Virus record (IMG/VR): IMGVR_UViG_3300030419_005254
Coordinates: 1-27,671 of that record
Length of the DNA stretch: 27,671 nt
Direction: 5' to 3' (one strand)
Source: a virus
Shown: piece by piece, positions 5,123 to 22,288 of the stretch
How positions within the stretch are numbered: the stretch's first letter is position 1
How the letters are laid out: the number at the start of each line of letters is the position of its first letter
Program-made: the position numbers and the translations under genes
Notes under the pieces: model-generated
What the model saw: the letters and a program-made list of their open reading frames with translations, nothing else
Told to the model about the DNA's origin: nothing
Databases searched by the model: none

Positions 5123-7153
5123 ATGGCAGATAAAAGTCCACTCCTACACGCACTAGAAAAGAACACCAAAGCACTTGAACGGGTTTCGAAGATGACAAAA
5201 AAGAAACCCGCAAGTGATTCTGCACCTACAACAAAAAAAGATACTACCCCAATAGAAGCATTGACACTAGCAGGAGCGGCCGGACAACAACTTACCAAAA
5301 GAAAAGAAGCGATTAAACAATCAATAGGTAGTAGAATATCTGCCGCATCAAGTTTTGTTCGTGGAGGATTCCTTAGAAAAATACCCTCTCTTGGTGTTGG
5401 TGGGTTTCTTGCTGATACTCTAGAAACTAGAAGAGAATCTATTCAGGCAAAGAAAGAACAAGACAAAAAGAATAAAGATACGATACAAACTCGTCTGCAA
5501 ACGATTAAGGGCATGAAAGAGGAAAACCCCGACATGACCACCGCAGAAGCATTGGCGCAAATACGAGGAGGGGGAGGAGAAGAGAAAAAAGAGTCCGAAG
5601 ATAAAGAAAAAGAATCTGAAAAATCATCTAGTATGCTCGATGAATTAAAGGTCATTTCAGAGGGTATATTATCTCTTGTAGAATTATTAAAACCTGACAA
5701 GGCAGAAGATAGAGAAAAAACTCTCGAAGAAGGAAGAAAGAAAAAACCAGGCGATGACGGTCAGATGGAACTGTTTCCTGATGATGAAGATGCGGCCAGT
5801 GTTGCAGGGGGTAGTTTTCTAGGCAGTCTTCTGGGTACAGGTGGATTGAAAAAAATGTTTGCAAGAATGATGCCTGCTTTGGGTGGTGCATTAGCAGGCG
5901 CCGTTAAATTCCTAGGACCCGTAGCATTACTTGCGGGTGGTGCAATGGCGGGATATGCCGCAGGTACTTGGATTTTCGATAACATTGTTGGTCCTGCAAT
6001 GGACAAATATGAAAAAGAAAAACAAGACGAAATGAACCGAGCGAGAGTAACCGAACACAAAGCAACTATGGTTAAGGGAACACAAGAGCAAGCAGTCCAG
6101 TTAGACACTGGTGAAGTTGTAACCAAGTCCCAAGCAATTGCGGCCGCCGGTAGTAAAGAAGCATATGACGCACAGGTTGAATCGGGGGCATTTAGGGAGA
6201 TGACTCACCAAGTAAATAAAGAAACTGGCGATGTCATGTTTGGACAGCAGGAAATAGAAGCAGGACTTGGTGAAAAAGAAAGATTCGATGCACTCAAAAA
6301 GTCTGAGGCGATTCGTACTGGTATGGGTCGAATGGACTTTGAAACTGGTGAGATGCGAGAAGCAACCGAAGATGAAGCAAAACTTGAAGCATACCACAAA
6401 GAAAAACGAGCAATCGAAATATTCCTCAACAAAGCACACCTCTCACAAGTTGCGATGTTACAAAAAGCAAAAGCAATGACCGATGAGACTGGATATGTAG
6501 ATGCAAACAAATTAGACAACGCATATAGGAGAGAGATGTTTAAATATGGTGAATTGATAGATTCAATGCACGCCGATAGTAGAATATCACCAGAAGCAAA
6601 AGATAGACTTGAAGATTTGATAGACCCATTTGTTGTATCCAGAACTGCATGGCATAATTATAGAGCAAGGAGTTTGTTCAATCAGAAAGATAACTGGAAT
6701 GAGTTGCTTCATGGACCTCAAGGAATCCACACATCATCATATGTAAAGTCCCCTCTGTGGCCACCAACACCTTGGTGGGATACCATCCAAACAGGCACAA
6801 ACAACACATGGATGCAACCATTGTCGTTTAGAAAAGGCGGTTTGATTCGAGCAGGTGGTGGAAAACTTGCAATGTTGCATGGAGATGAGGCAATTATTCC
6901 TTTGTCACAGTTAGCAAATGGTGCAGGGTTGGGCGGAGTGCATCCAGCAAACAAAGCAATGCTAATGCAACTTGCTGAAAATGCCACAGGAAAAATGACC
7001 ACCAGTAGAGGTGGTGGTGGAAGTCCTATTGTTGTAAGTGCGCCTGTTGCAAACAACACAACCATACGAAGAGAAAAGAAAATCATATCATCAACATCGG
7101 TTAGAAGTGTTGAAAATTCTCTCCTTCTAGCAGAAAGAGGAATTATCTCTTAA
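5123..7153 (+). CDS. Probable tail tape-measure/hub protein (gp29-like role)
   Basis: This 676-residue protein begins with a highly charged Lys/Glu-rich region (about 1-225) likely to form long helices. A hydrophobic Gly/Ala-rich stretch (about 227-296, with KFLGPVALLAGGAMAGYAAG) could span a membrane. Another long helical region (about 300-500) follows. Near the end, GGLIRAGGGKLAMLHGDEAI is followed by IPL; a GGL-x-GDEAIIPL motif is typical near the C-terminus of tape-measure proteins. Tape-measure proteins set tail length and can insert in the host membrane. At about 0.15 nm per residue it would specify a tail near 100 nm, similar to T4. It has a good ribosome site (AGAGGA) and closes the operon before a terminator. 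Sequence similarity to gp29 was not tested. Confidence 0.6.
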   Translation: MADKSPLLHALEKNTKALERVSKMTKKKPASDSAPTTKKDTTPIEALTLAGAAGQQLTKRKEAIKQSIGSRISAASSFVRGGFLRKIPSLGVGGFLADTLETRRESIQAKKEQDKKNKDTIQTRLQTIKGMKEENPDMTTAEALAQIRGGGGEEKKESEDKEKESEKSSSMLDELKVISEGILSLVELLKPDKAEDREKTLEEGRKKKPGDDGQMELFPDDEDAASVAGGSFLGSLLGTGGLKKMFARMMPALGGALAGAVKFLGPVALLAGGAMAGYAAGTWIFDNIVGPAMDKYEKEKQDEMNRARVTEHKATMVKGTQEQAVQLDTGEVVTKSQAIAAAGSKEAYDAQVESGAFREMTHQVNKETGDVMFGQQEIEAGLGEKERFDALKKSEAIRTGMGRMDFETGEMREATEDEAKLEAYHKEKRAIEIFLNKAHLSQVAMLQKAKAMTDETGYVDANKLDNAYRREMFKYGELIDSMHADSRISPEAKDRLEDLIDPFVVSRTAWHNYRARSLFNQKDNWNELLHGPQGIHTSSYVKSPLWPPTPWWDTIQTGTNNTWMQPLSFRKGGLIRAGGGKLAMLHGDEAIIPLSQLANGAGLGGVHPANKAMLMQLAENATGKMTTSRGGGGSPIVVSAPVANNTTIRREKKIISSTSVRSVENSLLLAERGIIS

Positions 7154-11311: not shown

Positions 11312-14300
11312 ATGGCAGGATTTAGAAAACATCTTACAAAGAATAGAAAACCTAGATTAGATTCAAAAAGAAGAAAATCTAAAACTCTATCCTTTGTCGG
11401 CAACCCTCGAATTATAGACACAACTGCACGAAAGTATACTGACACCGCCGAAGGTGACCAAATCGACACCATGCCCTATCTTGATGTAGGAACTAAATGG
11501 AATCCAGATAGAGATAGAGTAGAATATAGTCGTTGCTTTATACAGGTTAACATGGGCGAAACAGCACCTTATGGTGGGTTGGCGGGGGCGACATTTGATA
11601 ACCTTCCTAAAAATTCCACAATCAATGAAGCATTACTCACACTCCATTGCAGGGAAAAACCCCAAATCGATAGTGTATATGAAATTGGAATGCTCCCACC
11701 AGAAACACTTGTTGACAAAGCAAACTGGAATCATTATCAAGCAGGTTTTACAGCAACTGGTGAACCAAACAAATCATTCAAGTGGGTCGGAGATGATGAT
11801 AGCGACCTTGTTTCTACTGCACTTGACGATGAAGTTTATAAATTAATTCCCTCGATATCTCATCACTCTGGTATTCAATCAGAACCAAGAGTTTTCATCA
11901 ATGGCTCCTACGACTGGAATTGGCCATATGGTTTCAATACCTTCATTGAAAGTACCACAGACGGTGATGTGATTACCCAAGAAAATGAACTTCCACCCCC
12001 CGAACGATACAACTGGCCAAATTATTATACAGAGGAGGGGCGTGCAACCATTGAATATGTTAAAATGACAAAGTGGAACGAGTATGGCGACAACCCAGAA
12101 AACAAAACACACTTTGAAATCAAAATGACCCCAGTTGATGATGATTATAGTTGGCAAGAGGGTGACGGTATCGAACAATCTTTTTATAAGATGATGGGTA
12201 TTGGACCAGAGGATTCTTTAATTTTTGGAGTTTCTCGTGTTCAGGGTGGCAATCCAATTTATTCTTATGAGTATGAAGTTCCTGTATCAGAATTGAGTTA
12301 TCATACACCCCCAGACAATGATACTTGGGTAATTATAAGTTCGGAAAATTCACAACACGCAACACATACTTCACTCAGTGAAATTTTACCGCCTGACCCT
12401 AATGGAGTTCCTGACCTCCCTCAATCAGAACAAGACATAGATGATTTCAGAGAATTAATTAGTCGTGACCCTAACACTGATACCTTAGAACCAGTAACTA
12501 TTCGTGTTTTGGTAAAAAGAAAAGTTGGTGGATTTGTTGGTAGATTTGACGGTTATGGAAGTGACGGATACTGGCCTTTTAGTTCGGGCATTTTATATAA
12601 AGCAAAAGATGAGAGTGAAGTAGGATACAACGCGGGCACCGGCCGTGCAACCTTGCTTCCTTTGATTCCACTTGATGATGACAGTGGAACAGATTTTGAA
12701 TTACACTCAATGGAATTTCAAAGCAGTCAAACAAACCCCAGAGGTTCTCTTCAAATTTTCCACAACAATAGTTACGGTGACAACTTTGTCGCCGCGTGGA
12801 CAGACTTTTTTAAGGTGTTCGGTTTAGATTATGAAACTGTTGAACAAAACCCAGGCAAGTTTAAACTGATTATGACGGTTCAAAACAGTCAAGATGATTC
12901 TGTACACGAATACACATATCCGTTGGGGTATGGCGAATATGGTTCGGACCAATTTAGACCACAGGTTGGTAGTGGACAATATGGAGCGGGCGGTAGATTT
13001 ATTTTTAGAGGTAGTAACTGGACGCCAAACATTCCTCAAGAAGGCGATGGTTCTGAAGTTCTTGCTTTGTGGGGTCCTGACCCTGTAATTGCTTTTACTC
13101 TTAAACAAGTAGAGCCACTGGAAGGTGAACAGGATACTCATCTTGCACTTACTACTCTAGACCATGACACTCTCAATGAAGACGGTAAAGCATATGAAGA
13201 ATTAACTCAGAATGATTTTGTACCGTTTACACTTACAACCGATATGGAAGTTAATGATGAAATTACCATTGATGTTACTCAATTTGCACAAAGGGCACAG
13301 ACCCTATATGGCGGTCACTTAAAACTAATCATAAGAGAAAAATATTGGCCAGGCGAAGTTGAGAATGAAGGTGTTGAAGCAAGAGTCCTCACAGAAGAGC
13401 CAGGGGAGTTTCCTAGATATCTTCACTTCGAAGAAGGAGATTTCGGAAACCACAATGCTTCTTCAGGATATCTAAGAATGTGGAGAGTAAGACAAGGACA
13501 CCCAGAAGATAATAGACTTAGAATAGGAATTCCTAAAAGGGGAGGAAACCCCACCGCAACAACAGATTTCTCTTCTATTATGAATATATCAAACCCAGAC
13601 ACATACTTCTGGGATGTTAATAGTGCAAATCTACCGTTCAATATGGGTCTTGTAAAAACTCAAGTGTCTGATACAGGTGAAGCAGGCCTGCTGGCCAACG
13701 GCAACGCAAACACTAATCCTATGGCCACTTTGAACAGTCTTCTCATGTGGATAGACCCCAACACCGGCGATTTTCAAATTGCCGATTTTGAGTGGATGAG
13801 AACACCGAATCATCCCGAACCATATCCTGAGTCAAGTGAAATGCGTCATACAGTCGTAGAAATTACTCAAGACCAATTCTGGGTTTACTTTACTTTTGAT
13901 GAACCAAATGGATATTTACTCTACCAGACTCTGGAAGTTCCCGTCTACGGTGCAGTGCCTGGAGTGTGGACTCCACCTGAAGGTTGGTTTGATGGTACTA
14001 TTCCAGAGGCAAATGACCCAAATGGTGCTAAAACAATTGATGGAGACATTTTATTTCAAGTAGATAACAGCAGAGGTTATGTTCATCTTGGAGATAGTGT
14101 TAACATAACTGAAACTCCTAGTTTCCACTCTACAGAAAATTCAGGAGAAGACGAAAATTCAGTTGAAGATATGGGGATTAAATTTACAAGTGAAAATGGC
14201 TATTCGCTTTCCGTTGAATCTTCCTCCAATGAATATCTTGCTCTGCACAATTCTGTTGCAATTCCAGGCACATCCATCACTGGTAGTAGAATAGAATTTG

Positions 14301-14992
14301 GTAATGTAAATATTCCAAACTGGTTCTTTAATGAAAGATACGATGAGGTTGGTGGTCGACAGTTTAAACTAGTAAACACAAACTTTATTATTGGAGATGA
14401 TGAATATAACTTTGATGGGACATATACGATTAACACAACGGAAATTATAAACGGTGTATTTAACATATATGTTGACGAAACAGACAGTTGTTTTCTTCTT
14501 AGGGCAGACGGCAATCAAACGGATGTCGTGTATGATTTTGATGCTCTCGGACCTGCTTCTTGTGGAGGTGGAACTGATGGTTGGGAAGCGGTATATCCTG
14601 CTTCACCGACCCATGCTGTTTTAAACGGACAGAGAATAATTGACATTTCGGATGTGTCCCAAGATTATCCAAACCGCTTAAATTTTGGTATAGACATCGC
14701 CGACGGCGTTGGCGCCGGAGATGTTTTTGAGGTTGATGGAACAATCGAACTGGAATATGTGTTCGATGCATTCGGAACTGGAACAAATGCTGGTTTCTAT
14801 AAAATTGAAAAGATAGAAAGAGGCCAGAACAACAACTGGAAATTCTATGTAGAGAAAGATGATGGTAAAAGAATCAATGCTGAGTCTAATTTTGGTGGAG
14901 CAAAGATGCCAAGATTAAAGTCACACATTCTTAGTCCAAAACTTGATGTAACATTTACATACTCCGAAGAGTTTAGAGGAAATAACACTTAA
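11312..14992 (+). CDS. Large probable tail fibre or virion surface protein
   Basis: This 1226-residue protein has a very basic N-terminus (RKHLTKNRKPRLDSKRRKSK, residues 5-24) followed by a long acidic, beta-rich body with many Tyr, Trp, Asn and Asp residues. Residues about 60-190 (SRCFIQVNM, INEALLTLHC, ANWNHYQAG) and about 655-690 (ITIDVTQFAQRAQTLYGG, then LKLIIREKYW) resemble the two halves of DNRLRE-type surface modules, which I suggest only tentatively. The C-terminal part (about 920-1226) contains repeated beta segments such as GDILFQVDNSRGYVHLGDSV and FNIYVDETDSCFLLRADG. The length, composition and position between two structural genes suggest a receptor-binding fibre or other exposed tail protein. 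No clear enzymatic site is seen. The start is preceded only by a weak AAG-rich leader. Confidence 0.55.
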   Translation: MAGFRKHLTKNRKPRLDSKRRKSKTLSFVGNPRIIDTTARKYTDTAEGDQIDTMPYLDVGTKWNPDRDRVEYSRCFIQVNMGETAPYGGLAGATFDNLPKNSTINEALLTLHCREKPQIDSVYEIGMLPPETLVDKANWNHYQAGFTATGEPNKSFKWVGDDDSDLVSTALDDEVYKLIPSISHHSGIQSEPRVFINGSYDWNWPYGFNTFIESTTDGDVITQENELPPPERYNWPNYYTEEGRATIEYVKMTKWNEYGDNPENKTHFEIKMTPVDDDYSWQEGDGIEQSFYKMMGIGPEDSLIFGVSRVQGGNPIYSYEYEVPVSELSYHTPPDNDTWVIISSENSQHATHTSLSEILPPDPNGVPDLPQSEQDIDDFRELISRDPNTDTLEPVTIRVLVKRKVGGFVGRFDGYGSDGYWPFSSGILYKAKDESEVGYNAGTGRATLLPLIPLDDDSGTDFELHSMEFQSSQTNPRGSLQIFHNNSYGDNFVAAWTDFFKVFGLDYETVEQNPGKFKLIMTVQNSQDDSVHEYTYPLGYGEYGSDQFRPQVGSGQYGAGGRFIFRGSNWTPNIPQEGDGSEVLALWGPDPVIAFTLKQVEPLEGEQDTHLALTTLDHDTLNEDGKAYEELTQNDFVPFTLTTDMEVNDEITIDVTQFAQRAQTLYGGHLKLIIREKYWPGEVENEGVEARVLTEEPGEFPRYLHFEEGDFGNHNASSGYLRMWRVRQGHPEDNRLRIGIPKRGGNPTATTDFSSIMNISNPDTYFWDVNSANLPFNMGLVKTQVSDTGEAGLLANGNANTNPMATLNSLLMWIDPNTGDFQIADFEWMRTPNHPEPYPESSEMRHTVVEITQDQFWVYFTFDEPNGYLLYQTLEVPVYGAVPGVWTPPEGWFDGTIPEANDPNGAKTIDGDILFQVDNSRGYVHLGDSVNITETPSFHSTENSGEDENSVEDMGIKFTSENGYSLSVESSSNEYLALHNSVAIPGTSITGSRIEFGNVNIPNWFFNERYDEVGGRQFKLVNTNFIIGDDEYNFDGTYTINTTEIINGVFNIYVDETDSCFLLRADGNQTDVVYDFDALGPASCGGGTDGWEAVYPASPTHAVLNGQRIIDISDVSQDYPNRLNFGIDIADGVGAGDVFEVDGTIELEYVFDAFGTGTNAGFYKIEKIERGQNNNWKFYVEKDDGKRINAESNFGGAKMPRLKSHILSPKLDVTFTYSEEFRGNNT

Positions 14993-15003
14993 GGGGAATT
15001 GTA

Positions 15004-16467
15004 ATGGCAGAACTTTCAGAATTCACAACGATGGGTTGTTTACATTTCACTAACACAGAACTTGATAAGTTCACAAAAAGTGAAGAAGGTATGCAAGACC
15101 TTGCCAGTCAAATATGGGAACTGGGAAAGAAAAATGTTATTAACTGGGGTAAAAACACTGAGTCTGCTGAAAAACAGGGAATGTTGAAAAAATTAGGTGG
15201 TTCGAATAAAGGATTCGAGGGTGCAAATCTCGTAGCACAAACAAACCTTGCGATGGGAATCTCTGGCGCAAAAGCAATTCGAAAGTGGTTATCTTCCCAC
15301 CACGGAAAAACCCGTGTTAAACTTACGGGGGAGAATAAGAAGGGATACATGACAGGGGGTTCATGGTCAACAGATATTGAACACTTTAAATTTGACCACC
15401 TTGGAATGAAAGATTATAACTCTTCTGATATTATTTTACAATTAGGTGCAAAAGAATTTTATGGAATATCATTGAAGAAGAAGGGAATGGGTCCGTCTGC
15501 TCAAGACCCTACAATTCTTAATAAAGCATTTGATACAATATTAAATGCTAAACAAACCGCAGACATTAAGAAACTTCAAGCAGACATGGAGTTAATGAGA
15601 ATTAAGTTCTTTGCAGATGTTATGAGAAAGGCACACAAAGAAAAAAGAATTGACCTTGGTCCACTTGAGGGTGCTACTGATTTAGAACTGTTTAAGGCAA
15701 AAGTACCACAGGAACAAATAAAAAAATATGGTGGAGACAAAGGTGGAAAACCAAAAAGGTTTATTAATGTAAAGGGTGCTTTAAAACCATTCAAAGGTAA
15801 GGTATTTGAAAAGGGAGGCGAAGCAGGATATAATGACCCTGGCAAACCAAAAGGTAACAATGACTTCAGAGCGTTTGTCCTTGACCAATTAAATCCCAAA
15901 ACAACAGGAGATAAAAACATTTACAAGTTGTTGTATGATGCTATCTCCGACAAACATGCTAACTTCTTTGGTGAAACATTAGTAAACCTTGTTCTTAAGA
16001 AAGACCTTCTTACCGAGAGGGGAGGACTTGGAACAAAGCAATTTGATGTTCTTAACCACATGGAAGATTATACATTCGGATTTTCTCTTTGTACGATGGC
16101 GGGTGCGGTAACATCTAATAAGTCTGGATATAATGTCAGAGTAGGAAATGGTATATGTTACGAACAAGCATCTGTTATGTGTGCGATTGCACATTTTAAG
16201 GGCGTAAAGAAAACAAACAAATACTCCATCAAAGGACCATTCTTAGTTAGGTCATATAGTAGATTAACCGAAGCAGAGAAAAAGAATCAAGAAGCAAATG
16301 TAGCGGCCGCAAAAATTTGGTTTGAGATTTACTTAGGAAAGAATTATATTTTGGATTTGGAACTTAGGTACAAAGGCGAGTACGGCAGTCAACCACAGTT
16401 CTTCGGATATATTAGCGATGACTTTAAAGAGGTTGTCAATGGTATTTGTGAAAATATAAAAGACTAA
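15004..16467 (+). CDS. Virion-region protein with a PD-(D/E)XK-nuclease-like motif
   Basis: This is a 487-residue, Lys-rich protein. Near residues 141-160 it has SSDIILQLGAKEFYGISLKKK: an Asp in a beta strand (D142), then a second strand ending in S-L-K-K-K (K158). This arrangement resembles the core of restriction-endonuclease-like folds (D, then (D/E/S)-x-K). It is followed by DPTILNKAFDTIL, which I associate with a family common in T4-like marine phages. The remainder is helical and charged, with a C-terminal domain (about 340-487) containing NHMEDYTFGFSLCTMAG and NVRVGNGICYEQASV. AAGGGG precedes the ATG. It is the last gene of the plus-strand block, 11 bases after the fibre gene. A nuclease role is a hypothesis; it could be purely structural. 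Confidence 0.5.
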   Translation: MAELSEFTTMGCLHFTNTELDKFTKSEEGMQDLASQIWELGKKNVINWGKNTESAEKQGMLKKLGGSNKGFEGANLVAQTNLAMGISGAKAIRKWLSSHHGKTRVKLTGENKKGYMTGGSWSTDIEHFKFDHLGMKDYNSSDIILQLGAKEFYGISLKKKGMGPSAQDPTILNKAFDTILNAKQTADIKKLQADMELMRIKFFADVMRKAHKEKRIDLGPLEGATDLELFKAKVPQEQIKKYGGDKGGKPKRFINVKGALKPFKGKVFEKGGEAGYNDPGKPKGNNDFRAFVLDQLNPKTTGDKNIYKLLYDAISDKHANFFGETLVNLVLKKDLLTERGGLGTKQFDVLNHMEDYTFGFSLCTMAGAVTSNKSGYNVRVGNGICYEQASVMCAIAHFKGVKKTNKYSIKGPFLVRSYSRLTEAEKKNQEANVAAAKIWFEIYLGKNYILDLELRYKGEYGSQPQFFGYISDDFKEVVNGICENIKD

Positions 16468-16473
16468 TAAAAT
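16446..16473 (+). promoter_or_regulatory. Possible promoter ahead of the 23S-like element
   Basis: TTGTGA (16446-16451) and TAAAAT (16468-16473) are 16 bases apart on the plus strand, a fair sigma70-type match overlapping the end of the preceding gene. An alternative is the T4-late-like TATAAAAG at 16455-16462. Either would start an RNA just before the hairpin at 16491. In such AT-rich sequence this match could be chance. Confidence 0.3.
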
Positions 16474-16490
16474 TATACATAAAAAAAGAC

Positions 16491-16514
16491 AACTCTCAAG
16501 TTTCCTTGAGAGTT
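16491..16514 (-). terminator. Intrinsic terminator for minus-strand transcripts, or 5' hairpin of the rRNA-like RNA
   Basis: A perfect 10-base stem (AACTCTCAAG with CTTGAGAGTT) closes a 4-base loop. On the minus strand the loop is GAAA and the stem is followed by GTCTTTTTTTAT, a classic U-tract, so it should end leftward transcription coming from the hsp20 side. On the plus strand there is no U-tract after the stem, so rightward transcription would continue into the 23S-like segment with this hairpin near its 5' end. Confidence 0.8.
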
Positions 16515-16628
16515 ATCCACTATGAAGGTCGAAAGGTAGCGAAGTTCCTTAGTTAGAGTTTGATAGACTCTTTCTGCACATGGATGGAGTAACGACTGGC
16601 GCACTGTCCATCTGCTCGACACTTGAAA
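16515..16628 (+). ncRNA. 23S rRNA domain IV-like RNA segment (helix 69 loop to beyond helix 71)
   Basis: This gene-free segment reads like a divergent piece of bacterial 23S rRNA. 16519-16550 aligns without gaps to E. coli 23S 1913-1944 (recalled from memory) with 27 of 32 bases equal, including the helix 69 loop bases ACUAU and the AGGTAGCGAA core with U1939. Helix 71 follows as AGAGT / ACTCT (16555-16559 with 16567-16571) around a 7-base loop: different bases from GUCGG / CCGAC in E. coli but the same stem and loop size. Then come CTGCAC (16574-16579, containing the C1962 equivalent), ATGG-x-GTAACGA (16585-16595) and CACTGTC (16602-16608), in the same order as in 23S. Small insertions of 4, 2 and 2 bases separate the blocks. 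TGGATGGA (16581-16588) can pair with TCCATCTG (16607-16614), giving the piece its own closing stem. No open frame covers it. Its role is unknown. Confidence 0.75.
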
Positions 16629-16630
16629 AT

Positions 16631-16660
16631 AACGGCGATGCCCTGCAAGGCACCGCCGTT
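16631..16660. terminator. GC-rich hairpin, probable terminator in the convergent gap
   Basis: AACGGCGATGCC and GGCACCGCCGTT form a 12-position stem with a 6-base loop; the single mismatch on the plus strand becomes a G-U pair on the minus strand. GTTTGTT follows on the plus strand and ATTTTC on the minus strand, so both U-tracts are moderate. It probably ends the plus-strand transcript that carries the 23S-like segment and may also serve hsp20. Confidence 0.65.
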
Positions 16661-16711
16661 GTTTGTTAGATAGTTTATGTTGTTTAGTGTATTAATCTTC
16701 ACTAATACTAT

Positions 16712-17191
16712 TTATTCATCGGCATCATTCAAATTGACATTTTCTGCATCTTCGACTAAAAATTGTTTATCAGATACAATGCTAATTTTCTTTGGTTTTA
16801 GGTCTTCTGGGACGATTCGTTCCAGATAAACACGCAAGATACCACAATCAACCGATGCACCATTTACTTCAATGTGGTCTGCAAGACCAAATGTTCTTGT
16901 AAAATTACGATAGGCAATACCTTTGTGCTGATATTTTGCATCATCGGGTTTTACTTCTCGATTACCACTAATTGTAAGTTTATTATTTTCCACCTCAATA
17001 TCCAAGTCATGTTCATTAAAACCGGCAACCGCCAACTCAATAATTGACTGGGTATCACTCTCTTGAATAATGTTGTAGGGTGGGTAGTTTCCTGTGTTTG
17101 AAACATCTGCGATTCTTGTAAATCTGTCAAACATATCATCAAATCCAATTCCAAGACTCATGGGAAACGATAGGGAATACATATTGTCCAT
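16712..17191 (-). CDS. hsp20: Small heat-shock protein, Hsp20/alpha-crystallin family
   Basis: The 159-residue protein is an IbpA-like chaperone that holds unfolding proteins. The alpha-crystallin domain spans about residues 37-140: YNIIQESD, IELAVAGFNEHDLDIEVENN, LTISGNRE, then GIAYRNFTRTFGLADHIEV (91-109) and the G-x-L strand at GILRV (117-121). Residues 1-35 resemble the N-terminal arm that places F and M residues for substrate binding, and the tail is acidic. Such genes are common in marine T4-like phages, where they may aid head or tail folding or keep host photosystem or other proteins stable; that is inference. A strong ribosome site (AAGGAG) precedes the ATG. It is the first gene met when entering the minus-strand cluster from the convergent gap. 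Confidence 0.95.
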   Translation of the reverse strand: MDNMYSLSFPMSLGIGFDDMFDRFTRIADVSNTGNYPPYNIIQESDTQSIIELAVAGFNEHDLDIEVENNKLTISGNREVKPDDAKYQHKGIAYRNFTRTFGLADHIEVNGASVDCGILRVYLERIVPEDLKPKKISIVSDKQFLVEDAENVNLNDADE

Positions 17192-17424: not shown

Positions 17425-17481
17425 TGCTATGTACTGCCCCCGTGCGTACCACACTTTATGTATAATTATGCCTTGTTTGAA

Positions 17482-17565
17482 TACGGTCGGTGGGACTCGA
17501 ACCCACATGTCCTAACGGACAACAGATTTTAAGTCTGTCGCGTATGCCAATTCCGCCACGACCGC
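17482..17565 (-). tRNA. tRNA-Leu (anticodon UAA)
   Basis: The minus strand folds into a full class II tRNA of 84 bases: acceptor stem GCGGTCG / CGACCGT, D stem GCG / CGC, anticodon stem ACAGA / TCTGT with loop CTTAAAA (anticodon TAA), a long variable arm and T arm TGGGTTCGAGTCCCA. CCA is not encoded. The outermost acceptor pair is G-U. It reads UUA codons. Confidence 0.95.
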
Positions 17566-17569
17566 AGAA

Positions 17570-17890
17570 TTACTTCCTTAATCGTTTATGAAATTCCTCT
17601 GCACTTTCAAACAGAGAAACTCCATTCATTAGAATTCTTTTAACACACATTACTTCAATTGCTGTGCAAATAAAAGAAACAGAAACGGCAAGTATTGCAA
17701 GATACTTAGGAAACCCCAACATAAGGTCAGTAACAATCAAAACAATAGCAATGACATTTTGTGCAGTGATAACACCGAGCATATGATGTGCAAACATTGC
17801 CTTTGATTCGTTTGTCAAATCAAACAACATGCTTGTTGCAAACTTGTAACAGATATATGTTGTGATGGGAATTCCTATAATTGCAATCAT
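17570..17890 (-). CDS. Small membrane protein, three predicted transmembrane segments
   Basis: This 106-residue protein is mostly hydrophobic. MIAIIGIPITTYICYKFATS (1-20) can span the membrane, and VITAQNVIAIVLIVTDLMLG plus YLAILAVSVSFICTAIEVM (about 40-80) give two more segments. The C-terminal 25 residues are charged (ESAEEFHKRLRK) and probably cytoplasmic. No family is recognised. It starts directly after the stop of the zinc-finger gene (TAAATG) and ends 4 bases before tRNA-Leu, so it belongs to the same small-gene operon. Phage membrane proteins of this type may act in superinfection exclusion or host envelope changes, but nothing in the sequence shows which. Confidence 0.7.
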   Translation of the reverse strand: MIAIIGIPITTYICYKFATSMLFDLTNESKAMFAHHMLGVITAQNVIAIVLIVTDLMLGFPKYLAILAVSVSFICTAIEVMCVKRILMNGVSLFESAEEFHKRLRK

Positions 17891-18100
17891 TTATCTCGCC
17901 CTTGCATATTCACGGTTCAACCTACGAATGTTTTCTCTACCCCTTGCAACGATAACTTCACCCGCAGTCTTATGATTGTAAATCATTCGACCAACCATAG
18001 GTTCTGTGTGTTTATCCGCACACCGAACACAATACTCTGTGTCGGGCATTACTTGAATTCTTGCCGCCGGAATAGTAGTACCACAATCGAAACACTTCAC
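17891..18100 (-). CDS. DksA/TraR-like zinc-finger protein
   Basis: The 69-residue protein has a four-cysteine finger, C3-x2-C6 and C24-x2-C27, with CFDCGTTIPAARIQ and YCVRCADKH. The CxxCGxxIPxxR...CxxC spacing is that of the DksA/TraR zinc finger. The coiled coil that DksA pushes into the RNA polymerase channel is missing, so binding to polymerase is uncertain. The C-terminal half is basic (RGRENIRRLNREYARAR) and may bind nucleic acid. It overlaps the upstream gene by 4 bases (ATGA), which means translational coupling. Confidence 0.72.
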   Translation of the reverse strand: MKCFDCGTTIPAARIQVMPDTEYCVRCADKHTEPMVGRMIYNHKTAGEVIVARGRENIRRLNREYARAR

Positions 18101-18279
18101 TTGAATACTCCCATACGATTTACGATTCGATTAGTTTGAATCTCACCACCACGCTTGTGCATGTTGCGTTGCTTGGTAATTCCCTTACCCCAACCACGCC
18201 GGATGACGGTGTGACCTTTGATTGCGTTGCCTTCTCGCTCTGCTTCAAGGTCAAATTTGTCAAGCACTCTTTTAGGCAT
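18097..18279 (-). CDS. Small basic hypothetical protein
   Basis: The 60-residue protein starts MPKRVLDKFDLEAEREGNAI and is very rich in Arg and Lys (IRRGWGKGITKQRNMHKRGG), suggesting nucleic-acid binding. No family is recognised. It overlaps its upstream neighbour, the deaminase-like gene, by 8 bases and its downstream neighbour by 4 bases. A ribosome site (TAGGAGAAAC) lies inside the end of the upstream gene. The tight packing supports a real gene. Confidence 0.7.
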   Translation of the reverse strand: MPKRVLDKFDLEAEREGNAIKGHTVIRRGWGKGITKQRNMHKRGGEIQTNRIVNRMGVFK

Positions 18280-18655
18280 AATCTGTTTCTCCTAATTTAA
18301 TTATTCCTGAGTTGGTAGTATACCATATGTCATCGAACAATGCAACACACCAAGGTAAACATTTACAACAAGGTTTGCTTATTCTCATATCGCCGAATCG
18401 GTTGTACCGAAAGTTTATCAGTTTTAGATTATCTTTCGGTCCTCTATAACGCAAAAGTGCATCCAATTCTGAATGCACTTCGTCAAATCTATATCCTAGT
18501 TCCTTTGCCTTCGGATGCGTCCGAAAATTGTTCGTGCCAATAGAAACAATCTCGTTCTTCCGAACGATGATTGAGACATGCTTTTTCGGCCGAGCAATTT
18601 CCACTGCGACAGGCATAGCAATGTTACTAATTTTTGAAATCCGAGTGGGAGTCAT
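18272..18655 (-). CDS. Cytidine/deoxycytidylate deaminase-like protein
   Basis: The 127-residue protein has the two zinc motifs of the deaminase superfamily: HSELDAL (H61, E63), where the Glu would shuttle the proton, and PCCKC (P95-C96-x-x-C99), with the usual spacing of about 30 residues. The preceding strand IVSIGTNNFRTHPKA also fits the fold, with the substrate-facing N and the start of the first helix. The substrate cannot be told from the sequence; dCMP, free nucleosides, or bases in RNA or DNA are all possible. It is shorter than T4 dCMP deaminase (193 residues). It starts one base after the stop of the preceding gene and overlaps the next by 8 bases. Confidence 0.7.
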   Translation of the reverse strand: MTPTRISKISNIAMPVAVEIARPKKHVSIIVRKNEIVSIGTNNFRTHPKAKELGYRFDEVHSELDALLRYRGPKDNLKLINFRYNRFGDMRISKPCCKCLPWCVALFDDIWYTTNSGIIKLGETDYA

Positions 18656-18940
18656 TTAATATTTTGTAAAAAGTCTAAACTGACCAGGCATACCGATTTG
18701 AACATCATACTTTGCACTACGGCAAAGTTGTTGCATCTGCTTCTTATCGAGTCGATGACCTGGTGTATATTCAACTGTATTTTCAACGGTAATAATTTCC
18801 CACGCCTTCGGGTTTTTTACCTTGAATGACTCATATTTGTAAGGACGACCCCTACCCTTCTTGGTGTTGTCAAGAGGAACACGCTTCTGTTCCTTAAGAC
18901 ATGCTTCATCATATTCAATTGTAATCTTTGATTTCTTCAT
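18656..18940 (-). CDS. Hypothetical protein
   Basis: This 94-residue basic protein begins MKKSKITIEYDEACLKEQKR and contains KKGRGRPYKYESFKVK, an AT-hook-like GRGRP core at about residue 29-33, followed by a mixed domain ending GQFRLFTKY. The GRGRP core could contact AT-rich DNA in the minor groove, but one such core is weak evidence. A ribosome site AAGGATATATT lies ahead of the ATG, just downstream of tRNA-Arg. It is directly followed by the deaminase-like gene, so the two are probably co-translated. Confidence 0.6.
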   Translation of the reverse strand: MKKSKITIEYDEACLKEQKRVPLDNTKKGRGRPYKYESFKVKNPKAWEIITVENTVEYTPGHRLDKKQMQQLCRSAKYDVQIGMPGQFRLFTKY

Positions 18941-18956
18941 AATATATCCTTCATAA

Positions 18957-19029
18957 CACCCGTGGCAGGATTCGAACCTGCGACTGCCGGATTAGAAATC
19001 CGATACTCTATCCACTGAGTTACACGGGC
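18957..19029 (-). tRNA. tRNA-Arg (anticodon UCU)
   Basis: The minus strand gives a complete 73-base cloverleaf: acceptor GCCCGTG / CACGGGT, D arm ACTC-AGTGGATA-GAGT, anticodon arm TCGGA-TTTCTAA-TCCGG with anticodon TCT, and T arm GCAGG-TTCGAAT-CCTGC. CCA is not encoded, and the outermost acceptor pair is G-U. It reads AGA, a codon used heavily in this window. It lies 2 bases after the stop of its upstream neighbour. Confidence 0.96.
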
Positions 19030-19031
19030 AG

Positions 19032-19379
19032 TTAGTCCGTGAGTTTCAATGCAGGTGCATCAGAACCCATCGGTCCTCCTGCACCAACAACATCAGAAGC
19101 GGGAACAACAAGTCCACTACCAAATGCAGTGCTGTATTCGTTTCTTAGTTCGTTCGATGGGTCAAAAGTAAATGCAACAAAACTTTCTTTTACCTTAACA
19201 CCGTCTGTACCGATATCACCGTAACCCAACCAAGGCATGAGTCCAATCTGTCCCTGTCCTGTAGGAATAATGATACAAGGTTTCTTTAGAATGTAGAAAG
19301 AACCATCTGGACTTTCATCAAATTCCAAATCACAGATAATTTCTTCGCCACTGTTTAGTCGTGCAATCTTTGTACTCAT
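19032..19379 (-). CDS. Conserved phage beta-barrel protein, possibly Sm-like
   Basis: The 115-residue protein opens MSTKIARLNSGEEIICDLEF and continues with YILKKPCIIIPTGQGQIGLM and ESFVAFTFDPSNELRNEY, ending in a Gly/Pro-rich tail. I know this pattern from many marine T4-like phages, where it is of unknown function. The short alternating strands (KIARLNSGEEIICDLE) recall an Sm/SH3-like small barrel, but that is a guess. It is the last of three tightly coupled genes: its ATG overlaps the stop of the previous gene (ATGA). Confidence 0.75.
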   Translation of the reverse strand: MSTKIARLNSGEEIICDLEFDESPDGSFYILKKPCIIIPTGQGQIGLMPWLGYGDIGTDGVKVKESFVAFTFDPSNELRNEYSTAFGSGLVVPASDVVGAGGPMGSDAPALKLTD

Positions 19380-19510
19380 TTTTTCTTGTCCTTGTTAATT
19401 TGTTTGGTTTGTTTTTTGTTTTTTCCGAAGGCCTTTTCCCAACCTTCATCCCATTTCTTTTGGTCTACAGGGCGATACTTATCACCTTTTCCTGCTCCTT
19501 GACCCTTCAT
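19376..19510 (-). CDS. Small basic conserved protein (KGDKYRPVD type)
   Basis: This 44-residue frame has GKGDKYRPVDQKKWDEGWEK in the first half and a very Lys-rich end (KNKKQTKQINKDKKK). The GKGDxxRPV...WDxxW pattern occurs in small phage and bacterial proteins of unknown function, as far as I remember. It overlaps its neighbours by 4 bases on both sides (ATGA in each case), which is strong evidence that it is translated. Its AAGGAGCAGG-like sequences lie inside the gene, so initiation probably depends on coupling with the upstream gene. Confidence 0.72.
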   Translation of the reverse strand: MKGQGAGKGDKYRPVDQKKWDEGWEKAFGKNKKQTKQINKDKKK

Positions 19511-19638
19511 CGTAGTTTCTTCCCACTACCACACCGTGCAGTTCTTGAAGGTGCGTTGCCTTTCTTTTTCTTTGACCTTCTTGGTGAACCAACCTTGATT
19601 CTGTTTTGAACTGATGGGTCATATCCTTTTTTTGCCAT
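19507..19638 (-). CDS. Very small basic protein
   Basis: This 43-residue protein starts MAKKGYDPSVQNRIKVGSPR and is one-third Lys/Arg, so it probably binds nucleic acid or the ribosome. A good ribosome site (GGAG seven bases ahead) supports the ATG at 19638. An in-frame ATG at 19731 would add 31 residues (MDGLHWERINYNALSNMRGH and on) and also has an AGGA ahead of it, so the longer form cannot be excluded. It leads a coupled three-gene unit with the next two genes. No family is recognised. Confidence 0.6.
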   Translation of the reverse strand: MAKKGYDPSVQNRIKVGSPRRSKKKKGNAPSRTARCGSGKKLR

Positions 19639-20033
19639 CTTGTCTCTCCATAAAAGAAAACTTTGTAGTCCATGCCCTCGCATATTCGAAAGGGCATTGT
19701 AGTTTATTCGTTCCCAGTGGAGGCCATCCACTCTTGTCCTAATGAATCTTACATCATCTTCACACCGAAGGTGTCGCCAAAGGCCTTGTACTGGAAGGAA
19801 CGAGTTATTCGTGGACGGGAAGGATTAACATTTACCTTCAACTTTCGGGGTTATCTAGTTTGATATTCCCTACTCGCACTACGACTGAATCAGTTAAATT
19901 CTGCTAGACTCATTTGAGCATTCACATCCCACTACAGGAAATCGCATACATTATTTTCAATAACAAAAAATTGTTCTGTCACCGTCCTATGCCGAGGTAA
20001 TTAATCCCGACACATTATATATTCACTTTTTAA
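19639..20033. other. Gene-poor stretch
   Basis: No well-supported gene lies here, apart from a possible 31-codon extension of the neighbouring small gene up to 19731. An open frame on the plus strand at 19672-19863 is against the direction of all neighbours and lacks a convincing ribosome site. The stretch leads into the structured element at 20034-20081. I see no tRNA, repeat array or rRNA-like segment in it. Confidence 0.5.
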
Positions 20034-20081
20034 AACCTTGTGTGGGGTTTTCACCCACTACAGTGGTCGAACCACCAAGGT
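20034..20081 (-). ncRNA. Compact three-way-junction RNA element
   Basis: A closing stem ACCTTG / CAAGGT (20035-20040 with 20076-20081) encloses two perfect hairpins: GTGGG / CCCAC (20042-20046 with 20054-20058, 7-base loop) and GTGG / CCAC (20063-20066 with 20072-20075, 5-base loop). Only one base and a four-base TACA linker are unpaired at the junction. Read on the minus strand, the direction of the genes here, the closing stem is followed by TTTTAAAAAG. It may be an elaborate terminator after the helix-turn-helix gene or a small structured RNA. One hairpin resembles a tRNA T arm, but no tRNA is present. A separate hairpin (20088-20106, TGAACAG / CTGTTCA) lies just upstream and overlaps the stop codon of that gene. 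Confidence 0.5.
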
Positions 20082-20103
20082 GCAGTTTGAACAGTCAATC
20101 TGT

Positions 20104-20370
20104 TCAGAGCATGTAGCGGTTTCCGTTCTTATCGAAACCGAACTTGCGGACGCCTGGGTGGGTGTCCATCATAAAGTAACGACTTGCGCCACTCTTAGTT
20201 TCTTCGGAAACGATTTCCCAGTTACCGAATGCTTCAACCGTGTTACGGATGTCGCTGATAGTTGCACGAAGATTGCTTACGCCGTATCGTGACTTTGCTT
20301 CGTTTGCAGTAAGACCCTTACCGCTTGCAAGGTAGTTGATTACCTTACGCTTCTTGCTCATAGTAGCCAT
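20104..20370 (-). CDS. Helix-turn-helix DNA-binding protein
   Basis: This 88-residue protein carries a winged-helix-like motif in the first half: KVINYLASGKGLTANEAKSR, then YGVSNLRATISDIRNTVEAF (about 9-48), with TANEAKSRYGV as the turn and LRATISDIRN as the recognition helix. The second half (YFMMDTHPGVRKFGFDKNGN) is a small beta domain. The pattern is common in marine phages and probably regulates transcription or binds phage DNA. I chose the ATG at 20370 because AGGAG lies 8 bases ahead; an upstream in-frame start is less likely. A consensus-like promoter at 20453-20480 should drive it, so it may be an early gene. Confidence 0.78.
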   Translation of the reverse strand: MATMSKKRKVINYLASGKGLTANEAKSRYGVSNLRATISDIRNTVEAFGNWEIVSEETKSGASRYFMMDTHPGVRKFGFDKNGNRYML

Positions 20371-20452
20371 ATGAACTTCTCCTAACAAAATGGTGCTTTC
20401 AAAAATTTAGTCTGGTTGTCTGCACCAAAGACAGTTCGACTTACAGATTTGT

Positions 20453-20480
20453 ATTGTACCTTATATTCGCACAATGTCAA
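20453..20480 (-). promoter_or_regulatory. Sigma70-type promoter of the helix-turn-helix gene
   Basis: On the minus strand TTGACA (20480-20475) and TACAAT (20458-20453) are 16 bases apart. Transcription would start near 20446 and read a 75-base leader into the helix-turn-helix gene. The exact consensus -35 box makes this one of the best promoters in the window. Confidence 0.72.
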
Positions 20481-20489
20481 CAATAAAAT

Positions 20490-20885
20490 TCAGTTTTTGT
20501 TTCGGTGTCCACCAATTTTATTTGAAAGACCTTGGTATCCTGTTTCGGTCTTTTGTGACTCGATGACTTCTGTTCCTGTTTCAGTAATAGTACCGTCAGG
20601 ATTTAGAACTCGGCGTGTAGTTGACCGAGAACGAGTCTGTCCGTTACCTTGTATCTGATTGTTTTGTTGGTTTGCTTTGTCTACTTCGTTGCCAAGAATG
20701 TATCCTGCAACAGCACCAACACCCGCACCAATGAGCGTGGATTCTGTATCGTGTCCAATTGCTTGTCCTGCAAGGGCACCGATACCTCCACCCGCTAGTC
20801 CTCCTGTCTGTGCGGTGTTTGCACAACCGCCAAGAGTGATGAGGGACAATCCGATTCCGATATAATTCAAAGTGTTTTTATTCAT
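20490..20885 (-). CDS. Outer-membrane-type lipoprotein with glycine zipper
   Basis: The 131-residue protein has a lipoprotein signal: NKNTLNYIG, a hydrophobic stretch IGLSLIT and the lipobox LGGC with the acylated cysteine at residue 21. Residues about 27-66 form a glycine zipper (GGLAGGGIGALAGQAIGHD, then LIGAGVGAVAGYILGNEVD) like that of SlyB, 17-kDa antigen and similar envelope proteins, which inserts two helices in a membrane. The rest is polar and Gln/Thr/Asn-rich. Phage lipoproteins can block further infections or alter the envelope, but the sequence does not show which applies. AAGGAACACA precedes the ATG. It stands alone between tRNA-Lys and a promoter, so it may be expressed separately as a moron-like gene. 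Confidence 0.85.
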   Translation of the reverse strand: MNKNTLNYIGIGLSLITLGGCANTAQTGGLAGGGIGALAGQAIGHDTESTLIGAGVGAVAGYILGNEVDKANQQNNQIQGNGQTRSRSTTRRVLNPDGTITETGTEVIESQKTETGYQGLSNKIGGHRNKN

Positions 20886-20918
20886 TGTGTTCCTTCTTGT
20901 GTGTTTCGTTTTCGCAAG

Positions 20919-20991
20919 TGCCTTGAGTGGGACTCGAACCCACGACTTACGGTTTAAAAGACCGCTACTCTACCAACTGAGTTATCAAGGC
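20919..20991 (-). tRNA. tRNA-Lys (anticodon UUU)
   Basis: The minus strand folds into a complete 73-base cloverleaf with acceptor GCCTTGA / TCAAGGC, D arm ACTC-AGTTGGTA-GAGT, anticodon arm GCGGT-CTTTTAA-ACCGT with anticodon TTT, and T arm GTGGG-TTCGAGT-CCCAC. CCA is not encoded. It reads AAA and AAG. Confidence 0.96.
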
Positions 20992-21049
20992 AGAGGCGGA
21001 TAGCGAATCCCGCTTACGCTTTGGTTATGTGTTGATACTCAACCACGAG

Positions 21050-21178
21050 TTAAGTTCGAACTCTTTGTTGACAAGGAGACACCGTAAAACTCTTGTGCAA
21101 CGCATCCAGTTTTGACTGATGAATGCAGTGTTCATAAAAACCTATAAATCCTATATCTTTATGTTTTTCACCTATCAT
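21050..21178 (-). CDS. Very small hypothetical protein
   Basis: This 42-residue frame starts MIGEKHKDIGFIGFYEHCIH and ends SFTVSPCQQRVRT. It has one of the best ribosome sites in the cluster (AAAGGAGAAACC before ATG), which is the main reason for calling it. It contains two Cys and several His residues (H6, H17, H20) that might bind a metal. No family is recognised. It sits between the MNIFVVD-type gene (21277) and tRNA-Lys. Confidence 0.5.
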   Translation of the reverse strand: MIGEKHKDIGFIGFYEHCIHQSKLDALHKSFTVSPCQQRVRT

Positions 21179-21276
21179 TTTGGTTTCTCCTTTCAGTAGG
21201 GGTTTTGTTTATGTGTGTATTATACTGTGGTTGTTATGCCGGAGCAAGGGTAGAACAGATATTTTACAAATTTCTT

Positions 21277-21828
21277 TTAGGTCTTTAGACACATTTCTAA
21301 AAACCAATATGGTACTTCGGCGTTTTTCCATTTGGCGATTTCTACTTTTTCGCCTAAGTAATAATTACGATACGATTGAACGGCATTATTCTCTTTGTAC
21401 TCGTCCGGCATCGCCATCGCAAATGGTGTCTGTGTACCCTTGTGAATATTTTTTGGCAAGTGATATTCACAATATTCAATAACCTCTTGTGATTTATGTA
21501 CCCTACCATATCTTCTAGTATACTCTCGACACAATTCCATTGCATGTTCAGTGTGCCACAAATAATTTGAGTGTGACTGCATTGTCCATTTAGTACACGG
21601 ATGTCCCATGAAGGATGCTTTGTATAAAAGACCCTCTCTCTCGTCATCCAATCTCCACCGTCTAATTCGCCTGTTGTTGGCAGAAAGTTCAGTATACTCT
21701 GTTCCGTCCAATACTCGATGTGCAGTAGAAAGCATCTGTGCAGATTCCACTGGCATCTTTACAATGTGCTTGTCACACAAAGAACGAGCGGCATCTACTG
21801 GATTGTTATCTACTACAAAAATATTCAT
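21277..21828 (-). CDS. Widely conserved phage protein of unknown function
   Basis: This 183-residue protein begins MNIFVVDNNPVDAARSLCDK and has HIVKMPVESAQMLSTAHRVL, GHPCTKWTMQSHSNYLWHTE and MPDEYKENNAVQSYRNYYLG. I recognise the pattern, with CDKHVVKM, ESAQMLSTAHR, NHPCxxWARxSxxNY and MPDEYKxxDxxxAYRNYYxxEK, from many unrelated phages, but know of no established function. The conserved Cys, His, Asp and Glu residues suggest an enzyme. The length is normal for the family, so it appears intact. It overlaps the stop of the upstream HNH-like gene by 4 bases (ATGA) and has only a weak ribosome site, so coupling is likely. Confidence 0.75.
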   Translation of the reverse strand: MNIFVVDNNPVDAARSLCDKHIVKMPVESAQMLSTAHRVLDGTEYTELSANNRRIRRWRLDDEREGLLYKASFMGHPCTKWTMQSHSNYLWHTEHAMELCREYTRRYGRVHKSQEVIEYCEYHLPKNIHKGTQTPFAMAMPDEYKENNAVQSYRNYYLGEKVEIAKWKNAEVPYWFLEMCLKT

Positions 21829-22202
21829 TGGTTTCTCATTTCAATTAATTGGTTTAGTCTCTCTTTAAAATCAGAACCTTCATATGCTCCTCTTCCGCGA
21901 TTTGCGAGTCGAACGGTAAGAACAACATTACCCTGAACATATCCATTTTTATTTACTAGTCTATCCACCGATGGTGCAAATGGAGAATGTGCAACAAAAA
22001 GACCATCGGGGTCCATGGGAACATCTAACCAATAGCACAATCCATTTTGTTTATCCCACAGTTCTTTAAGATAGTCGATTGTAATTTCGAGGTCTCTTGA
22101 CTCCCAATCTATACACGCCAATGCTCGTCTTCCACCCTTTGCTCCATACTTTGCAGAGAGTTTAACATTATCGTAAAGTTGTTTCCAATGTTTATGTTCC
22201 AT
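21825..22202 (-). CDS. HNH-like endonuclease-type protein
   Basis: This 125-residue protein has LWDKQNGLCYWLDVPMD in the middle and, after a spacer, PFAPSVDRLVNKNGYVQGNV followed by VLTVRLANRGRG. The GxCYWxxxPM...PSVDRxxxxxGYxxGNV pattern is known from phage HNH-type nucleases with a reduced zinc site; only one Cys of the usual pairs is kept. Whether it still cuts DNA is open. I chose the ATG at 22202 because the longer frame reads through the tRNA-Ile gene. The start is only 8 bases from the end of that tRNA and has no clear ribosome site, which is odd. It may be a homing-type or accessory nuclease. Confidence 0.68.
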   Translation of the reverse strand: MEHKHWKQLYDNVKLSAKYGAKGGRRALACIDWESRDLEITIDYLKELWDKQNGLCYWLDVPMDPDGLFVAHSPFAPSVDRLVNKNGYVQGNVVLTVRLANRGRGAYEGSDFKERLNQLIEMRNQ

Positions 22203-22210
22203 ACTGCTAA

Positions 22211-22283
22211 TAGGGCAGGCGGGACTCGAACCCGCGAGGATACCGTTATAAGCGGTACTGCTAATGCCATCCGCGTCTGCCCC
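22211..22283 (-). tRNA. tRNA-Ile-like (anticodon UAU), unusual D arm
   Basis: The minus strand has a good acceptor stem (GGGGCAG / CTGCCCT, outermost pair G-U), anticodon arm TACCG-CTTATAA-CGGTA with anticodon TAT, a 5-base variable loop and a good T arm GCGGG-TTCGAGT-CCCGC. The D region (about 16 bases) contains a GG pair but forms at most a two-base stem, and position 8 is A instead of U. It may read AUA, or it may be decaying. CCA is not encoded. Confidence 0.8.
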
Positions 22284-22288
22284 AGATG

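Follow-up and report, generated by a model that had tools for sequence, protein, structure and literature searches.

Proteins and tRNAs are known means by which phages gain control of host translation. The phage RNA described here has its nearest precedents in plasmid antisense RNAs, in guide RNAs for rRNA and in CfrI, a cis-antisense RNA. In the plasmid systems CopA/CopT and RNAI/RNAII, an exposed loop of the antisense RNA meets a loop of its target, and the antisense RNA has its own promoter and terminator, and imperfections in its stems keep RNase III cleavage in check. Archaea and eukaryotes have small guide RNAs, of the C/D and H/ACA types, whose antisense elements are directed at conserved rRNA; to our knowledge none is known in bacteria or phages. 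The Rfam 23S-methyl RNA motif is a cis-regulatory element found upstream of methyltransferase genes. CfrI of cyanophage S-PM2 is described, as cited in PMC5931967, as a cis-antisense RNA to the phage's own psbA.

The element analyzed here lies in an uncultured virus record of IMG/VR (IMGVR_UViG_3300030419_005254, positions 1–27,671); that whole stretch of 27,671 nucleotides is referred to as the window. The predicted RNA resembles CopA/CopT and RNAI/RNAII in its stem-loops, exposed target-complementary loop, own promoter and terminator, and imperfect stems. However, those RNAs act on the mRNA or primer of their own locus, while the phage RNA is viral and would target host 23S rRNA in trans. 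With the C/D and H/ACA guides it shares small size and antisense elements to conserved rRNA; box C (RTGATGA) occurs in none of 31 members, and the element does not belong to the box C/D guide RNAs. Like CfrI, in the account cited above, it is an antisense RNA in the genome of a T4-like marine phage, but CfrI is there said to target psbA in cis, not host rRNA. The 23S-methyl RNA motif is likewise tied to 23S rRNA, through its methylation, but is cis-regulatory, and no family in Rfam 15 matches the window element or its relatives.

The element occupies a gene-free gap of 244 bases (16468–16711) between two convergent genes, as the first-pass annotation, made from the letters of the sequence, had described it. 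The features of the gap and its borders are:

15004–16467, plus strand: left neighbor gene, PHROG 3060
16480–16518, minus strand: intrinsic terminator of the antisense RNA, a 14-pair hairpin (16518–16487) followed by seven T
16519–16550, minus strand: antisense block I, complement of 23S 1913–1944 (H69 loop to 5’ side of H71), 27 of 32 positions
16528–16532, minus strand: 3’ strand of helix P1 (TCGAC on this strand), predicted from sequence to pair with 16616–16620
16553–16574, minus strand: hairpin P3, standing where 23S has helix 71 but unrelated to it in sequence; missing in the "small" subgroups
16575–16595, minus strand: antisense block II, complement of 23S about 1964–1981, includes the 3’ strand of helix P2
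16583–16588, minus strand: 3’ strand of P2, predicted from sequence to pair with 16607–16612
16601–16609, minus strand: antisense block III, GGACAGTGC on this strand, complement of 23S GCACTGTC(T/C) at about 1987–1995
16616–16620, minus strand: 5’ strand of P1, predicted from sequence
16631–16660, minus strand: another GC-rich hairpin, on the 5’ side of the antisense core; "large" subgroup only
16709–16716, minus strand: putative late promoter AATAAATA (T4 TATAAATA, cyanophage NATAAATA); overlaps the stop codon of Hsp20
16712–17191, minus strand: right neighbor gene, Hsp20

The predicted transcript of the window runs from about 16700 to 16480. The hairpin at 16631–16660, which is terminator-like on the minus strand in the window and in members L018, L033 and L037, is probably either the terminator of the Hsp20 transcript or a 5’ hairpin of the RNA. 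No conserved neighbor gene of the element was found – the flanking proteins differ among members and mostly have no PHROG match. Elsewhere in the window, two large proteins of 676 and 1226 aa (5123–7153 and 11312–14992, both plus strand) have no PHROG match at all. Four tRNA genes (Leu-TAA, Arg-TCT, Lys-TTT, Ile-TAT) lie among small phage genes at 17481–22284 (minus strand), and this tRNA-rich region also contains a manA RNA (RF01745) at 19809–20012 (minus strand; 57.6 bits, gathering threshold 55.2).

The resemblance to 23S rRNA had been proposed in the first-pass annotation, and alignment to the Salmonella 23S gene reproduced it. Positions 16519–16550 are identical to 23S 1913–1944 (E. coli numbering) at 27 of 32 positions without gaps, and the blocks TGCAC, ATGG..GTAACGA and CACTGTC follow in the 23S order. 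Chance is excluded as the source of the match, since its local-alignment score was 49, compared to a mean of 21.4 and a maximum of 38 in 2,000 dinucleotide-preserving shuffles of the sequence. An Rfam cmscan of the window region, the covariance-model check that had been suggested, gave no match to LSU rRNA, either at gathering thresholds or at E values up to 10, and the region thus has no gathering-score match to bacterial LSU rRNA (RF02541). The rRNA sites that had been listed as kept were present in part: equivalents of the H69 loop and U1939 are found in the sense sequence, while the C1962 region, in helix 71, is deleted or replaced in the family.

Scans of IMG/VR with patterns derived from the window and its relatives found the element in about 50 viral contigs. 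The set consists of 41 distinct versions of the element from earlier scans, plus L177 and L183. Ten of ten tested phage records had one strong model match each. The T4 major capsid protein, gp23, was encoded in 8 of the 9 element-bearing contigs larger than 100 kb; judged by this protein, the uncultured phages carrying the element appear to be mostly T4-like where the contig is long enough for testing. The nearest named relatives of three capsid proteins searched (pelagiphage HTVC008M, Methylophilales phage Melnitz, cyanophages) have about 53–57% identity, and gp23 identity among members falls to 52–53%. Thirteen named T4-like phages, among them pelagiphages, Methylophilales phages and cyanophages, lacked the element apart from weak matches at chance level; the strongest of these matches (S-8S55, E 0.035) lies within apparent protein-coding sequence and looks like chance. 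Host contamination was rejected – phage genes flank the element, and gp23 is present on the large contigs. A coding function, as mRNA or small-protein gene, was also rejected: the longest ATG-started ORF in the RNA has 34 aa in one member and 0–29 in the others, and these short ORFs are not conserved.

Some matches outside the family are of a different kind. Those in genome_contigs (L074–L085) are genuine rRNA genes, and several low-scoring LSU copies among them look mitochondrial. Two near-identical 23S-bearing contigs were binned in a Rickettsiales MAG (L081) and a Flavobacteriales MAG (L084); they are probably mis-binned, given their low LSU score (1606 bits) and mitochondrial look. Many of the GenBank "phage" records H3–H23 (Staphylococcus, Listeria, Salmonella, Escherichia, Klebsiella) match 23S in this region, several being annotated as 23S, and these matches are most likely host sequence.

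The transcribed strand is indicated by several signals across the family. A late promoter, [TC]ATAAATA, precedes the RNA on the minus strand in 26 of 39 members (expectation from shuffles 1.25, maximum 4), and on the plus strand one lies upstream of the element in 1 of 39. The cyanophage late promoter consensus is NATAAATA (PMC2984593); the window has the form with A at −13, which is also found among T4 late promoters (PMC2988020). A terminal GC-rich hairpin followed by a U-run is present on the minus strand in 32 of 39 members and on the plus strand in 1 of 39, and the hairpin at 16518–16487 is the sole terminator found within 16400–16800 of the window. The hand-defined P1 and P2 helices have 34 G-U pairs when read on the minus strand and 3 on the plus strand, a comparison whose p-value should not be read literally because the helices were picked by reading the minus strand and the members are related. 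The consensus fold is more stable on the minus strand in four of five subgroups, for example subgroup B (−66.9 versus −53.2 kcal/mol) and subgroup D (−75.8 versus −62.1 kcal/mol). The window alone folds slightly better on the plus strand (−55.2 versus −49.4), and the strand call therefore rests on the family. The hairpin CGAAC..GTTCG on the sense strand, which has some plus-strand G-U pairs, seemed initially to favor the plus strand; this reading was dropped because only the minus strand accounts for the toggles of P1 and P2 in several subgroups. The element thus has, in silico, its own transcription unit with late promoter and terminator on the antisense strand. Transcription of the 23S-sense strand, as in RF02541 and in the first-pass annotation, is disfavored by promoter, terminator and wobble pairs; these point to the minus strand, so the RNA is predicted to have the sequence of 23S rRNA in reverse complement.

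The complementarity to 23S domain IV is extended, as in trans-acting antisense RNAs, and consists of three antiparallel blocks within 23S 1912–1997: about 1913–1944 (I), 1964–1978 (II) and 1987–1997 (III). In block III, the motif RGRCAG is present in 22 of 36 members (2.0 expected). Helix 71 (1945–1963) has no counterpart in the small subgroups; the large subgroup, which includes the window, has an unrelated hairpin in its place. With a covariance model of 46 positions for which 28 phage sequences were the sole source, bacterial 23S genes score 44–58 bits on their reverse strand; Salmonella 23S scores 51 bits (E 1.5e-10) and the window 55 bits. The invariance of GGTAGCGAARTTCC in the alignment is partly due to ascertainment, since most members were found with patterns containing it; it is kept in six of six members found with patterns lacking it (L109, L110, L112, L113, L177 and L183).

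Mismatches to 23S recur at particular sites. Compared to the 23S of all 12 bacteria examined, A1918 faces C in 34 of 36 members and A1938 faces C in 27 of 36. C1967 faces A in 25 of 33 members, with one exception among the 12 bacteria. A mismatch at C1925/U1926 is also recurrent, but was partly fixed by the search patterns. In most members, pairing with 23S rRNA runs for no more than about 11 bp without interruption. The recurrent mismatches are unexpected in a purely antisense RNA and may reflect avoidance of RNase III, internal pairing, or an unusual host.

In the predicted fold, helix P1 closes the RNA and has compensatory variation across the family. Helix P2 is formed by a variable 5’ arm paired with a near-constant strand, UACGCYRUUCRUGC. 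In hand-chosen segments, identity among subgroups is 92% for the 3’ strand of P2, which is complementary to 23S, and 26% for its intramolecular partner. Such asymmetry is expected if an RNA outside the molecule fixes one strand, and 23S rRNA is an outside RNA of matching sequence. The segment GGAAYUUCGCUA is predicted to be unpaired, in the loop of a short AAGG/CCUU hairpin; in subgroup D, L177 and L183 it lies, partly as judged by eye, between P2 and a longer P1. The sequence GCGAAC in the P2 loop (e.g. L051, L045, L047, L055) is kept in 26 of 36 members and is complementary to UUCGC of the antisense loop. To judge from this complementarity, the two may form an internal pseudoknot or inhibit the RNA from within.

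The explanation that best fits these observations, given about an even chance, is that the element is a late minus-strand gene for a small, self-terminated phage RNA that would pair with host 23S rRNA and block subunit joining or 50S maturation. The RNA is predicted to be about 110–220 nt long. The exposed GGAAYUUCGCUA would make the first contact with the complementary 23S 1931–1942, in the manner of classical antisense RNA kissing, and pairing would then extend to either side of helix 71. The site of pairing would be the free 50S subunit (its interface face, in the area of bridges B2a/B3) or pre-50S particles, and subunit joining or 50S maturation would be blocked late in infection. Of the functions put forward in the first-pass annotation, a ribosome-targeting regulator is retained in modified form, as an RNA antisense to 23S and not as a 23S-sense RNA.

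A structured phage RNA of unrelated function, such as a protein scaffold or a regulator of phage mRNA, could also have arisen from an inverted 23S capture, with its sequence serving its own fold, including the GCGAAC/UUCGC pseudoknot, and not rRNA pairing. The potential pairing of GCGAAC with the loop UUCGC in 26 of 36 members and the recurrence of mismatches to 23S agree with this, but UUCGC is kept in subgroup A and L177, which lack GCGAAC, and the three 23S-complementary blocks are kept while their intramolecular partner strands change; this explanation is considered rather unlikely. Transcription of the 23S-like strand would give a mimic, a decoy for proteins that bind H69–H71 (RluD, RlmD/RumA, RlmI, TlyA, ribosome recycling factor). 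A decoy for rRNA-modifying enzymes had been suggested for this locus, and such an RNA would keep the U1939 and H69-loop equivalents, would not be harmed by the recurrent A-to-G and C-to-U departures, and would suit the slightly better plus-strand fold of the window. A decoy needs 23S-sense transcription, however, and with plus-strand promoters and terminators in 1 of 39 members each, wobble pairs favoring the minus strand 34:3, and the C1962 region absent from most members, it is improbable.

Pairing with 23S rRNA might instead offer host rRNA, as a duplex substrate, to RNase III or another nuclease, and its degradation would supply nucleotides late in infection. The late promoter and the long complementarity are consistent with this, but in most members mismatches break the duplex into stretches of no more than about 11 bp and would hinder RNase III, which makes degradation very improbable. 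That the element is a chance match, a host contaminant or a relic without function would account for the window's lack of an Rfam LSU match and is hardly credible – already refuted by the shuffles, by the position of the element between phage genes in about 50 viral contigs, several with gp23, and by the covarying helices with a dedicated promoter and terminator. A 23S attachment or homing site was rejected, as it leaves these helices, promoter and terminator unexplained. The captured host relic proposed earlier is acceptable as to origin, which is likely a piece of 23S captured in inverted orientation, but not as to relic status, because the 23S-complementary blocks were kept while capsid proteins diverged to about 53% identity.

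In the literature searched, mainly open-access papers, no phage RNA was described as antisense to rRNA. On the sequence evidence it is proposed, tentatively and at somewhat less than an even chance, that these elements are a new phage RNA family that attacks or reprograms the host ribosome through base pairing with the universally conserved domain IV of 23S rRNA, and the first natural virus-encoded anti-rRNA antisense RNA. If true, ribosomes would be controlled in a new way, by RNA antisense to the functional core of the large subunit, and a site in rRNA that can be reached and targeted would come to light. Should the function be another, the element would still represent a widespread RNA family, so far undescribed and equipped with a late promoter of its own, and its likely origin by inverted capture of a piece of 23S would itself be unusual.
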